From positions 1 to 64,000 of the forward strand of contig CANFDS010000005.1 of assembly GCA_947445525.1 (NCBI GenBank): a DNA stretch of 64,000 nucleotides. The letters run 5' to 3'. Source of the DNA: Actinomycetota bacterium (GTDB lineage Bacteria; Actinomycetota; Thermoleophilia; Gaiellales; Gaiellaceae). Of the stretch, positions 41,842 to 48,660 are shown piece after piece; position 1 is the first letter of the stretch, and each line of letters opens with the position of its first letter. The position numbers and the translations under genes were made by a program. Under the pieces are notes generated by a model. It was given only the letters and a program-made list of their open reading frames with translations. It was not told the DNA's origin and did no database searches.

Positions 41842-43290
41842 ATGAACGCCCTCCACCGCCACCTCGCGCTGATCGGCTTCATGGGGGCTGGCAAGTCCAC
41901 GGTCGGGGCCGAGGTCTCGCGGCGGCTCGACCGGCTCTTCGTGGACATCGACCGCGTCGTGGAGGAGCGCGTCGGCACGACGATCGCCACTCTCTTCGCC
42001 GAGCGCGGCGAGGCAGCGTTCCGCGCGCTCGAGGCCGAGGCCACCGTCGAGGCGCTGCGCCGGCCCGAGCCCGCCGTGATCGCGCTCGGCGGCGGCGCGG
42101 TGGGCACGCTCGAGATTCGCAAGGCGCTCCAGGAGCATGCGCTGACGGTGCTGCTGGAGGTCGCCGTCAACGACGCCTGGAAGCGGTCGCAGAGCGGCCA
42201 CCGGCCCCTCGCCCGCGACCGCGCCCGCTTCGAGGCGCTCTACGACGAGCGCGAGGGCCTGTACCGCGACTGCGCCGACGCCACCGCGCGCGACGCCCAC
42301 GACGTCGTGCTCGCCGCGGGCGGCGTCCACGTCGGCGTCGGCTCGCTCGAGCGGCTCGGCGAGCTCGTCCCCGGTGTCGGCCGCGTCGCGCTCGCCGCCG
42401 ACCAGCGGGTGCTCGGGATCTACGGCGCCGAGGCCCAGATCGCCCTCGGCACACGGCTGGGCGCCACGCACGAGCTGCCCTCCGGCGAGGAGGCCAAGTC
42501 GACCGGCAGCCTCGAGCGGCTGTGGTGCGACCTGCAGCTCGACCGCAGGAGCACGCTCGTCGCGCTCGGCGGCGGTTGCACGACCGACGTCGCCGGCTTC
42601 GCCGCCGCCACGTACATGCGCGGGATCCCCTGGGTCTCGGTGCCGACAACGCTCGTTGGCCAGGTGGACGCGGCGATCGGCGGCAAGACCGGCATCAACC
42701 TGCCGTCGGCGAAGAACCTGATCGGCGCCTTCCACTGGCCCACGCGCACCGTCATCGACCCGGTGCTGCTCGAGACGCTGCCCGCCGAGGAGCGCGCAGG
42801 CGGGATGGCCGAGGTCGTCAAGACCGGCCTGCTCGCCGGTGAGCGCCTGTGGGAGCTGCCCGCCCCGGAGCTTGTGCGCCGCTGCGCCGCGCACAAGGTC
42901 GCCGTCTGTGTGCGCGACCCGCACGACCGCGCGCTCCGCATGTCGCTCAACCTCGGCCACACGTTTGCGCATGCGCTGGAGGCGGGCGCGGCGTACTCGA
43001 CCGTCTCGCACGGCCACGCCGTCGCCCTGGGGCTGCGGGCCGCGCTCGAGCTCTCCGTGCGGCACCTCGGCCTCGACCCGGCCGCCGGGCAGGTCGTCGA
43101 GGAGGTGCTGCGGCCGCGCCGCGTCAAGGTCGACCTCGAGCGGGCCTGGCAGGCCCTGGCACGCGACAAGAAGGCCGAGAGCGGACGTACCAGGCTGGTG
43201 CTGCTGGAGAAGCTCGGCAAGCCGGTGTGGGGCGTCGAGCTTCCGAACGACGAGGTGCGCGCCGCGCTCGAGTCGCTCGTGGAGCGGTAG
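41842..43290 (+). CDS. aroKB: Bifunctional shikimate kinase / 3-dehydroquinate synthase
   Basis: N-terminal LIGFMGAGKSTVGAEVSRRL kinase; C-terminal ALGGGCTTDVAGFAAATYMRGIPWVSVPTTLVGQVDAAIGGKTGINLPSAKNLIGAFHWP. Confidence 0.95.
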   Translation: MNALHRHLALIGFMGAGKSTVGAEVSRRLDRLFVDIDRVVEERVGTTIATLFAERGEAAFRALEAEATVEALRRPEPAVIALGGGAVGTLEIRKALQEHALTVLLEVAVNDAWKRSQSGHRPLARDRARFEALYDEREGLYRDCADATARDAHDVVLAAGGVHVGVGSLERLGELVPGVGRVALAADQRVLGIYGAEAQIALGTRLGATHELPSGEEAKSTGSLERLWCDLQLDRRSTLVALGGGCTTDVAGFAAATYMRGIPWVSVPTTLVGQVDAAIGGKTGINLPSAKNLIGAFHWPTRTVIDPVLLETLPAEERAGGMAEVVKTGLLAGERLWELPAPELVRRCAAHKVAVCVRDPHDRALRMSLNLGHTFAHALEAGAAYSTVSHGHAVALGLRAALELSVRHLGLDPAAGQVVEEVLRPRRVKVDLERAWQALARDKKAESGRTRLVLLEKLGKPVWGVELPNDEVRAALESLVER

Positions 43291-44815: not shown

Positions 44816-45382
44816 GTGGCCGAGACAGTCTCCACCAACATGTTCAAGAACGGCATGCACATCGACGTCGAAGGCGACGCGTGGCGCATCGTCGAGTTCC
44901 AGCACGTCAAGCCCGGCAAGGGCGGCGCCTTCGTGCGCACCAAGCTGAAGAGCGTCGCGAGCGGCGCGGTGGTCGAGAAGACCTTCCGCGCCGGCGAGAA
45001 GTTCAGCCGGATCCACACCGAGGTGCGCAACGCCCAGTTCCTCTACGAGGCAGGCGACGAGGTGCACTTCATGGATCAGGAGACGTTCGAGCAGTACATC
45101 CTCGCCCGCAGCGGCGTCGTCGAGGCGCTCGACTTCATACTCCCGTCCGAGGTCATCCAGATCCTCAGCCTCGACGGCGTGCCGATGACCGTGCAGCTCA
45201 GCGCCTCCGTCGAGCTGAAGGTCACCGACACCGAGCCGGGCGTCAAGGGTGACACCGTCTCCAACGTGACGAAGCCGGCGACGCTTGAGACCGGCGCCGT
45301 CGTCGCAGTGCCGCTGTTCGTCGAGGTGGGCGACCGCATCAAGGTCGACACCCGCGACAAGCGCTACATCTCGCGCGTGTGA
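44816..45382 (+). CDS. efp: Elongation factor P
   Basis: STNMFKNGMHIDVEGDAWRIVEFQHVKPGKGGAFVRTKLKSVASGAVVEKTFRAGEKF. Confidence 0.97.
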   Translation: MAETVSTNMFKNGMHIDVEGDAWRIVEFQHVKPGKGGAFVRTKLKSVASGAVVEKTFRAGEKFSRIHTEVRNAQFLYEAGDEVHFMDQETFEQYILARSGVVEALDFILPSEVIQILSLDGVPMTVQLSASVELKVTDTEPGVKGDTVSNVTKPATLETGAVVAVPLFVEVGDRIKVDTRDKRYISRV

Positions 45383-45466: not shown

Positions 45467-47275
45467 GTGCCAGCACTCGTCGACACCACGATCCGCCTGC
45501 TCGGACAGGAGCCGCTCGCCGGCTCGGTGCCGGCGTCGGCGACGCTGCGGCTCGCCGAGCTCCTCGACGGCGCGGGCTTCGCGTACCTCGAGGTGTCGGG
45601 CGGCGGCTGCTTCGACACAGCCGTCCGGCGCGGCGTCGAGAGCCCGTGGGAGCGCATCCGCGCGATCAAGCAGCGCACGAAGACACCGCTGGCGATCGCG
45701 GTGCGCGGCCGGTTCCTCGTCGGCGTGCGCCCCGTCGGCGGCGACCTCGCCCGGCGCTTCGTCGCCTGCGCCGCCGAGAGCGGCATCGACGTCTTCCGGC
45801 TGCACGACCCCCTCAACGACGTCTCCAACCTCGTCGAGGCCGCCGCTGCCATCACCGCCGCCGGGCGGGAGTTCGCCGCCGGCCTCGTCTACAGCCCCGG
45901 CCCCGGCGGCGAGCTGGAGGCGCTCGCCGGACGCGCCGCCGCCCTGCGCGACCTGGGCGCAACCCGCATCCTCGTGCACGACCCGTCCGGCTCGCTGCGG
46001 CCCGGCCGCACCCGCGAGCTCGTCGTGGGCCTGCGCGAGGCGTCGGGCCTGCCGATCGGCCTCTACTGCCAGGGTGCCGCCGGCAACGCGCTGGCGACGG
46101 CGCTGGAGGGCGCCCGCGCCGGCGCCGACCTGCTCGCGTGCACGATCTACCCCCTCGCTGTTGCCCTCTACCGGCCCGCCGGCGAGGCGCTCTCCGAGGC
46201 GCTCGACGGGCTCGGCCTCGGCTCCGGCATCGACGGGGAGCGGCTGTGGCAGGCGGCCGAGCTGGTCGGTGGCCACCTCGGCGCGCTGCCCGTGGCCCCG
46301 CTCGCTCCGTCCGTGGCCACGCAGGCGGCCCGCCGCCAGCTTCCGCCTGGCCTGATCGCCGCCCTCGATCAGCACCTCCAGGCCTTCGGCGCGGCCGACC
46401 GGCTCGACGAGGTGCTCGACGAGCTCGCCCGCGTGCGCGAGGAGGCCGGCCGGCCGCCGCTCGCATCGCCGATCGGTCAGATCCTCGGCTCGCAGGCCCT
46501 GCTCCATGTGCTGACGGCCCGCCGCTACGGCACCGTCGTCGACCAGCTGCGCGAGCTGCTCGAAGGCCAGTACGGCACCGCACCCGGCGAGGTCGACGAC
46601 ACCGTCGTGCGCGCGATCCGGCTCACCTACGGCGAGCTGGCGCCGCGGGTGGCACTCGACATCGAGCAGGTGCGTGCCGACGCCGACGGCCTCGCAGCCG
46701 CCGAGGAGGACCTGCTGCTGCTCGCGCTGTTCGGCGTGGACGCGCGGGCGCTGCTCGAGGCGATGCGCGAGCGCGGCAACGAGACGCTCGCCGCTGCCGG
46801 CGTCGATCAGGATCGTGCCGAGCGTATCCGCGAGATCGTCCGTATCGTCCAGGAGTCCGGCGTCGCCGAGGTGACGATCGAGGAGGGCGACCTGAAGGTG
46901 TCGGTGCGGCGCACCGACGACCGGCCGGCTGCTGCCGTGGCTGCCGCTCAGCTGTCACCGCTGGCCGACCTCGACGTGCCCGCCACCGGCAGCGTGGGCG
47001 CCACCTCGCGGCCTGGCATGCACCGCGTCGAGTCGCCGATGGTGGGCACCTTCTACCGCGCGTCGTCGCCGGCGGCACCGTCGTTCGCCGAGCTCGGCAC
47101 TGCTGTCGAGGCGGGCCAGACGCTCTGCATCCTCGAGGCGATGAAGCTGATGAACGAGGTCAAGTCCGAGATCGACGGCATCGTCCGGGTGATCCACGTC
47201 GGCAACGGCGACCCCGTCGAGTTCGGGCAGCTCCTCTTCGAGCTCGAACCGGTCGGCGGACCGCCGACGCTCTGA
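45467..47275 (+). CDS. Degenerate OadA/PycB-like carboxyltransferase domain fused to biotin carboxyl carrier protein
   Basis: N-terminal VDTTIRLLGQEPL...DVFRLHDPLNDVSNLVEA...HDPSGSLRP; C-terminal AccB-like MVGTFYRASSPAAPSFAELGTAVEAGQTLCILEAMKLMNEVKSEIDG. Confidence 0.88.
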   Translation: MPALVDTTIRLLGQEPLAGSVPASATLRLAELLDGAGFAYLEVSGGGCFDTAVRRGVESPWERIRAIKQRTKTPLAIAVRGRFLVGVRPVGGDLARRFVACAAESGIDVFRLHDPLNDVSNLVEAAAAITAAGREFAAGLVYSPGPGGELEALAGRAAALRDLGATRILVHDPSGSLRPGRTRELVVGLREASGLPIGLYCQGAAGNALATALEGARAGADLLACTIYPLAVALYRPAGEALSEALDGLGLGSGIDGERLWQAAELVGGHLGALPVAPLAPSVATQAARRQLPPGLIAALDQHLQAFGAADRLDEVLDELARVREEAGRPPLASPIGQILGSQALLHVLTARRYGTVVDQLRELLEGQYGTAPGEVDDTVVRAIRLTYGELAPRVALDIEQVRADADGLAAAEEDLLLLALFGVDARALLEAMRERGNETLAAAGVDQDRAERIREIVRIVQESGVAEVTIEEGDLKVSVRRTDDRPAAAVAAAQLSPLADLDVPATGSVGATSRPGMHRVESPMVGTFYRASSPAAPSFAELGTAVEAGQTLCILEAMKLMNEVKSEIDGIVRVIHVGNGDPVEFGQLLFELEPVGGPPTL

Positions 47276-47280
47276 CGGCC

Positions 47281-48660
47281 GTGTTCAAGCGCGTGCTCAT
47301 CGCCAATCGTGGCGAGGTCGCGGTGCGTGTCATTCGTGCGCTCCACGAGCTCGACATCGAGGCCGTCGCGGTCTACTCGACCGCCGACGCCGACTCGCTC
47401 CACGTGAAGATGGCCGATCGCGCGGTCAAGATCGGCCCGCCCGCGGCCAACGCCAGCTACCTCAACATGGCGTCGATCATCGGCGCTGCGCAGATCACCG
47501 GCGCCGAGGCGATCCACCCGGGCTGGGGCTTCCTCTCCGAGAACGCCGACTTCGTGCGTGCCTGCGCGGACAACGACATCGTCTTCATCGGCCCGACCCC
47601 GGAGGCGATGGAGCGCATGGGCGACAAGGCGCAGGCCAAGGCCGAGATGCGTGCTGCCGGCGTTCCCCTCGTGCCGGGCACGGAGGGCACCGCGACGCTC
47701 GCCCAGGCACGCGCCGCAGCCTCGGAGTTCGGCTATCCGGTGCTGCTGAAAGCCCGCTCCGGCGGCGGCGGCCGCGGCATGCGGCTGGTGCTGGGGCCCG
47801 ACCAGCTGGAGGCGGCCTACGCGGCGGCTGCAAACGAGGCGGAGGCCGCTTTCGGCGACGGCGGCCTCTACCTGGAGAAGGCGCTCGTCCCGGCTCGCCA
47901 CGTCGAGATCCAGGTGATTTGCGACAGCCACGGCAACGTGCTCACCCTCGGCGAGCGGGAGTGCTCGATCCAGCGTCGCCATCAGAAGCTGATCGAGGAG
48001 TCGCCGTCGGCCGCGCTGACGCCCGAGCGCCGCGAGGAGATGGAGGCCGCCGCCGAGCGCGCCTGCCGCGCGATCGGCTACGAGAACGCCGGCACCTTCG
48101 AGTTCCTGCTCGGGCCCGAGGGCAACTTCTACTTCATCGAGCTGAACTGCCGCCTGCAGGTCGAGCATCCGGTCAGCGAGCTATGCACGCGCGTCGACAT
48201 CGTGCGCGAGCAGCTGCGCGTCGCCGCGGGCGAGCGGCTGCTGCAGTCGGGCCGGGCCCCGCGCGCCGGCCACGCCATCGAGGTGCGCATCAACGCCGAG
48301 GATCCGTCGCGCGGGTTCCTGCCGGCGCCGGGCCGGATCTCGCTCTTCCAGCCGCCGCTCGGGCCGGGCATCCGCATCGACAGCCATGTCCAGACGGGCT
48401 CCGTGGTGCCGCCCTACTACGACTCGCTGATCGCCAAGCTGATCGTGTGGGACGCCGACCGGCCCGCCGCGATCGCTCGCACCCTGCGGGCGCTCGACGA
48501 GCTCGTGATCGAGGGCGTGCCAACCACCGCCGCGGTCGCCGCCGACGTGCTGCGCAGTGACGACTTCGGCTCGGGCAACTACTCGACGAGCTTTCTCGAG
48601 CTGAACGAGGCGAAGCTGCCCTCGCTGCGCACGGCCGCCGCCGTGACTGGGCCGGCATGA
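47281..48660 (+). CDS. accC: Biotin carboxylase
   Basis: FKRVLIANRGEVAVRVIRALHELDIEAVAVYSTADADSLHVKMAD...GGGGRGMRLV...ECSIQRRHQKLIEESPS...YFIELNCRLQVEHPVSEL. Confidence 0.97.
   Translation: MFKRVLIANRGEVAVRVIRALHELDIEAVAVYSTADADSLHVKMADRAVKIGPPAANASYLNMASIIGAAQITGAEAIHPGWGFLSENADFVRACADNDIVFIGPTPEAMERMGDKAQAKAEMRAAGVPLVPGTEGTATLAQARAAASEFGYPVLLKARSGGGGRGMRLVLGPDQLEAAYAAAANEAEAAFGDGGLYLEKALVPARHVEIQVICDSHGNVLTLGERECSIQRRHQKLIEESPSAALTPERREEMEAAAERACRAIGYENAGTFEFLLGPEGNFYFIELNCRLQVEHPVSELCTRVDIVREQLRVAAGERLLQSGRAPRAGHAIEVRINAEDPSRGFLPAPGRISLFQPPLGPGIRIDSHVQTGSVVPPYYDSLIAKLIVWDADRPAAIARTLRALDELVIEGVPTTAAVAADVLRSDDFGSGNYSTSFLELNEAKLPSLRTAAAVTGPA

Follow-up and report, generated by a model that had tools for sequence, protein, structure and literature searches.

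What is the present role of a protein that joins the carboxyltransferase (CT) part of a pyruvate carboxylase or oxaloacetate decarboxylase to the biotin carrier of acetyl-CoA carboxylase (ACC), when the residues expected to carry out carboxyl transfer have been replaced? This question is raised by an open reading frame at positions 45467 to 47275 (+) of the window, i.e., the whole 64,000-nucleotide stretch of Thermoleophilia DNA analysed here, which starts with GTG and encodes 602 aa without an internal stop. The preliminary description had read it as an OadA/PycB-like N-terminus followed by an AccB-like C-terminus with the motif EAMKLMNE, located upstream of accC, and this reading was borne out by Pfam and NCBIfam profiles.

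Domain architecture of the fusion protein

From its N-terminus, the fusion is composed of an HMGL-like TIM barrel containing the predicted dead CT (residues 1–290; 45467..46336, +; PF00682, matched over residues 3–267), the PYC_OADA conserved carboxylase domain (residues 290–440; 46334..46786, +; PF02436) and a complete AccB with N-terminal segment, linker and biotinyl domain (residues 453–594; 46823..47248, +; TIGR00531), within which Biotin_lipoyl was matched at residues 520–593. The scores of PF00682 (35 bits) and PF02436 (74 bits) were both above the cut-off, indicating that the order of barrel and then PYC_OADA is present. The AccB part covered positions 5 to 155 of the 156 of the TIGR00531 (NCBIfam) model with 123 bits, against a cut-off of 115.2. 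The predicted biotinylated Lys560 (47144..47146, +) is part of EAMKLMNE, and EAMK was intact in every fusion with residues at that site (100 of 104) among the distinct sequences sampled from f1–f3, the three gene-holding families of the source genome's order, a sample that does not include every copy. In a phmmer search of the PDB, the top matches were a two-subunit pyruvate carboxylase (5ks8), OadA (2nx9) and transcarboxylase 5S.

Loss of the catalytic site

The CT site was aligned to that of OadA from Vibrio cholerae (2nx9), whose residues D17, K178, H207 and H209 are established in this family as metal ligands. The motifs LRDAHQS, LLRGQN, ALKDM, LHCHS and VTPTS of OadA were matched, free of gaps, by IRLLGQE, AVRGRF, LVHDP, LYCQG and ASPIG in the fusion. 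As a result, the metal-ligand Asp (D17) is replaced by Leu11 (45497..45499, +), the carbamylated Lys (K178) by His171 (45977..45979, +), and the metal-binding His-x-His (H207, H209) by Tyr200-Cys-Gln202 (46064..46072, +), in agreement with the earlier claim that the Asp, the Lys and both His had been exchanged. In the same alignment, Ser334 (46466..46468, +) takes the place of the catalytic Thr, equivalent to Thr882 of R. etli pyruvate carboxylase, which has been termed catalytically essential (PMC5895798).

The loss of ligands extends over the order. Among the f1–f3 sequences, the D17 position was occupied by Leu, Val or Ile in all 99 that were readable there, and the K178 position by His (64), Asn (25), Leu (8), Asp (6) or Ser (1), so that His accounted for 62% and Leu was found in one family. 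The H207 position contained Tyr (94), His (6), Ser (2) or Phe (2), and the H209 position Gln (102) or His (2), each out of 104, while Ala, most often, or Ser stood at the catalytic Thr position in 100 of 103, with Pro and Gln also occurring. The full metal-ligand set was present in none of the 104 distinct sequences, a pattern of replacement far beyond chance, and this number of distinct sequences rules out a sequencing error or an artefact of one genome. Intact ligands at shifted positions, a possibility raised by the preliminary description, were looked for in the 2nx9 alignment and not found, and they are ruled out by motifs that align gap-free with conserved flanking residues. Near the pocket, the f1–f3 alignment contained no newly fixed metal set of Asp, Glu, Cys or His, the fixed changes being mostly to Arg, Tyr, Gln and Trp. 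With the ligands lost, there is a strong case against catalysis, and the designation of the CT domain as a pseudoenzyme, i.e., its catalytic death as claimed before, is well supported as far as sequence can tell, with four ligands and the catalytic Thr replaced order-wide.

Conserved locus and number of losses

The upstream neighbour efp (44816..45382, +; TIGR00038) marks the orthologous locus by synteny. Downstream, accC (47281..48660, +) starts directly after the stop codon of the fusion and encodes an intact biotin carboxylase subunit (NF006367, above the cut-off) whose catalytic motifs are kept in the alignment to 8hz5. The gene order aroC-aroKB-aroQ-pepP-efp-[CT-AccB]-accC-nusB-ispA, whole or in part, is shared by the source stretch, f1–f3, Coriobacteriia, and f7 and f9, which are other families of the source genome's class, Thermoleophilia. 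The class assignment follows from the grouping of named records (L033, L036) with these families, and the order may be Gaiellales. Since canonical CT motifs are found in fusions of f6, most of f7, f9, Coriobacteriia and Bacillota, in the actinobacterial ones at the same locus, the gene of the source genome is an orthologue that lost its site rather than a different gene. A class-wide search gave matches at 1e-30 or better in 232 of 399 genomes, including nearly all of f1–f3, and a PYC_OADA protein was present in all 27 relatives of 90% or higher completeness.

The neighbourhood also contains an aroK-aroB fusion ORF (shikimate kinase and 3-dehydroquinate synthase; 41842-43290, +), which is matched in the corresponding region of related genomes, and a gene for an FMN-dependent alpha-hydroxy-acid dehydrogenase (PF01070; 50065-51153, +) just downstream of the nusB-ispA group. 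In f6 (L129, L130, L131), the canonical CT-AccB occupies the efp locus but is followed directly by nusB rather than accC.

Sites were found to be differently broken in other lineages. In f5, at the same locus, the Asp is kept, the Lys is mostly replaced by Ser, and HxH has become QxQ, IxQ, SxR and others, and the equivalents of OadA Q20 and R87 are lost in these dead fusions. Two f7 genomes contain Ser, Lys and DxD at the ligand positions, and because DxD might still bind a metal, they are called non-canonical here, not surely dead. Outside the class, f16 contains SxY and a Gly in place of R87, with the Asp and Lys remaining, and its gene adjoins accC. The CT-AccB of L229 (f34) keeps His-x-His, with Lys178 changed to Met and R16 to Gly, and is possibly an intermediate towards loss. 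In the AccC tree, f1–f3 and f5 formed one group (100/98), f16 stood apart and non-canonical f7 fell inside canonical f7, and one dead clade including f7 was rejected (p 0.0075). The CT tree, which has long branches, joined the dead forms and rejected the f7 grouping (p 0.012), a conflict over f7 that could reflect either long-branch attraction or gene exchange. The CT site thus appears to have been lost at least twice, counting f16, and probably three times.

Probable association with acetyl-CoA carboxylase

An association with an acetyl- or acyl-CoA carboxylase had been suggested from the window, and it gained support from the full and sole AccB, the adjacent accC, the accA and accD genes elsewhere in the genome and the co-occurrence with AccA. 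The source genome contained one PYC_OADA protein and one AccB above the cut-off, and both are this fusion. A second pyruvate carboxylase was rejected for the source genome, in which no other PYC_OADA protein was found; one is present in some relatives (G030, L127 and several f5 genomes). The other biotinyl domain of the source genome is part of a BC-BCCP protein, and the contig that encodes it also contains a PCCB-type gene. An intact accA and an accD with the Cys4 motif were found adjacent to each other on contig C46, the latter with 289 bits, slightly below the cut-off of 317. The source genome is a fragmented metagenome-assembled genome (MAG) with 8% estimated contamination, as most of the compared genomes are MAGs, so that a second AccB or pyruvate carboxylase could be missing from the assembly; relatives of 90% or higher completeness gave the same picture.

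Among 56 genomes checked, AccA (E < 1e-50) was found in all 29 that bear the fusion, in one of them (G131) as a match split in two pieces, and 22 genomes of f4, f8, f10 and f11 without the fusion had no AccA, giving cross-hits only. This co-occurrence follows family lines and therefore represents few independent events, and as proof of ACC function it is weakened by an f7 subgroup (G068, G083, G094, G110) in which AccA is present and the fusion absent. In several canonical f6 and f9 genomes with AccA and AccD, the fusion was the sole TIGR00531 match, in keeping with an ancestor in which one carrier was shared by both reactions.

Other arrangements were seen in genomes without the fusion. AccA was present in most f7 genomes lacking it, and in f7 genomes of this kind (G068:C60, G094:C5 and others) an OadA-like CT with the motif HxHYTSG lies beside a PCCB-type gene and a small biotinyl protein. 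In f4, which belongs to the same order (G039, G042, G045, G048, G051), AccA/AccD and the fusion were absent and PCCB-type carboxyltransferases were the only ones found, so that another acyl-CoA carboxylase is probably used. Multi-subunit ACC has been reported in under half of the Actinobacteria analysed (PMC3199775).

Origin and present role of the carboxyltransferase domain

It is probable that the protein descends from an ancestral bifunctional PycB/AccB that lost CT catalysis and was kept as the carrier of ACC, its CT domain now being a structural and possibly keto-acid-sensing pseudoenzyme. The fusion would serve as the AccB of a multi-subunit ACC, with an N-terminal CT inherited from the beta chain of a two-subunit pyruvate carboxylase or OadA-type enzyme. 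The ancestor at efp - CT-AccB - accC probably conducted two reactions through one biotin: once AccC had loaded it with CO2, the fused CT could use the carboxyl group to turn pyruvate into oxaloacetate, or AccA-AccD could use it to turn acetyl-CoA into malonyl-CoA. After CT catalysis had been lost in this lineage, carboxyl transfer would have been left to AccA-AccD, and as the only AccB is part of this chain, the chain had to be retained.

In the AlphaFold2 model of the fusion, the mean pLDDT was 90 and the barrel mostly reached 93–99. A Foldseek search with this model gave 5ks8 as the best match, with target-normalised TM scores of 0.83 to 2nx9 and 0.84 to 1rqh, and the dead CT is thus modelled as an intact OadA fold; for a member of the f5 fusions, the mean pLDDT was 87.8. 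A lost site combined with a preserved shape and a partial pocket suggests a structural or sensing job for the domain at present. Judged from selection and predicted fold, the retained barrel most likely keeps AccC and AccB assembled by CT dimerisation and by placing the carrier, such that it would still dimerise and set the geometry of AccC and carrier, and a ligand in the pocket could modulate this. In two-subunit pyruvate carboxylase, the subunits are joined by a BC helix and by a sheet of four strands in the linker of CT-BCCP, and the CT forms dimers (PMC5059739). In the model of the fusion, a helix (448–464) and two strands (468–473 and 476–481) lie between the CT part and the biotinyl part, around the start of the AccB match.

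Part of the substrate pocket has been retained. Arg80 (45704..45706, +), equivalent to the pyruvate-binding active-site residue R87 of OadA and presumably, by homology, to Arg621 of R. etli pyruvate carboxylase, was invariant in f1–f3 (102/102), and so were Arg10 and Gln14 (45494..45508, +), the equivalents of OadA R16 and Q20 (99/99 each). The latter two are putative pyruvate-binding residues too, as their counterparts in the R. etli enzyme, Arg548 and Gln552, have been reported to allow pyruvate binding (PMC10653868). The catalytic machinery being gone, the grip on a keto acid may have been kept, and the barrel may bind a 2-oxo acid without turnover. Accordingly worded as regulation, the dead pocket would be a sensor of pyruvate, oxaloacetate or another 2-oxo acid that tunes the attached ACC to the 2-oxo-acid pool, which is possible, if rather unlikely. 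Consistent with it, these residues are invariant while the metal and catalytic residues are gone, Gln is almost fixed in place of H209, and conservation at the pocket positions, a hand-chosen set, somewhat exceeds that of barrel positions drawn at random (p about 0.03). Since the residues that would grip the keto acid are kept without exception in f1–f3, the binding of a ligand could control how the carrier moves or how the subunits assemble. Nevertheless, the loss of Q20 and R87 in dead f5 indicates that not every dead form shares such binding, and the three residues may persist for packing.

That the barrel only folds, as a passive relic that cannot be removed from AccB without harm, is unlikely. 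AccB is essential and is fused in frame here, and the differently broken sites of several lineages would fit an unconstrained decay of catalysis. However, the dead barrel is not decaying, and purifying selection acts on it as strongly as on AccC: its pairwise omega was 0.085–0.255, compared with 0.10–0.26 for AccC, and often lower than that of the biotinyl domain. In addition, 71 barrel positions showed 95% or higher conservation across the dead clade, and the CT domain was full length in complete copies across f1–f3 and f5, in which no internal deletion was noticed.

A conversion of the barrel to some other, metal-independent lyase or carboxyl-transfer chemistry is very improbable. The substrate-binding Arg and Gln are kept and fixed residues have been gained in the pocket (Gln202, Phe83, Arg82, Arg236), but no cluster of newly fixed Asp, Glu, Lys or Cys accompanies them, His171 occurs in only 62% and gives way to Leu in one family, Ala mostly stands at the catalytic Thr position, and HMGL-like carboxyltransferases require a metal. 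It is hardly credible that the fusion still functions, with unusual ligands, as a subunit of pyruvate carboxylase or oxaloacetate decarboxylase. The profile matches to PycB and OadA are highly significant, and the genome contains no other PYC_OADA protein. However, the PycB score (PRK09282, NCBIfam; residues 4–594) is 361 bits, below the cut-off of 402, about twice which is reached by a canonical sister (L128, 832 bits). In addition, the catalytic Thr and all four metal ligands are replaced, and one ligand position contains Leu, Val or Ile wherever it is readable.

If an ACC carrier with a structural pseudoenzyme is the right reading, fatty-acid synthesis in a major soil lineage would depend, at its first committed step, on a carrier with a fossil pyruvate-carboxylase domain, and the canonical sisters at the same locus would point to an ancestral enzyme whose single biotin served the synthesis of both oxaloacetate and malonyl-CoA. 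Should the pocket act as a sensor, fatty-acid synthesis would be coupled to central carbon supply. For metabolic models of Thermoleophilia, this is a warning not to label such genes pyruvate carboxylase or oxaloacetate decarboxylase.

Comparison with known systems

Kinases and proteases offer well-known examples of pseudoenzyme domains. In the open-access literature, outside which most subscription papers lie, we found neither a pseudoenzyme in a biotin-dependent carboxylase nor any work on this fusion. Among known proteins, PycB of Methylobacillus flagellatus (5ks8) resembles the fusion in its CT barrel, PYC_OADA domain and C-terminal biotinyl domain, its separate BC subunit and its overall fold, whereas the fusion has lost the metal ligands, the catalytic Thr and the RGQN..Y motif, and its carrier is a complete AccB. 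OadA (2nx9) and transcarboxylase 5S (1rqb) share the CT fold, with target-normalised TM scores of 0.82–0.84, and the R16, Q20 and R87 kept in the fusion; unlike them, the fusion has replaced D17, K178, H207 and H209, and its neighbours are accC and efp, as identified by profile downstream and upstream, respectively (oadB and oadG were considered in the neighbourhood only).

The fusion is similar to AccB (TIGR00531) in its near full-length match including the N-terminal segment, the EAMKLMNE motif, the adjacent accC and its position as the sole AccB of a genome that has accA and accD, but differs from it by about 450 extra N-terminal residues that form the predicted dead carboxyltransferase. 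The canonical CT-AccB fusions of Thermoleophilia (f6, f7, f9), Coriobacteriia and some Bacillota are orthologous to it and have the same domain order; the actinobacterial ones also share the efp-X-accC order, and in several genomes with accA and accD such a fusion is the sole AccB. In contrast to the fusion of the source genome, these proteins keep the Asp, the Lys, HxH, R/Q/Y and the catalytic Thr, and they are therefore presumably active carboxyltransferases.
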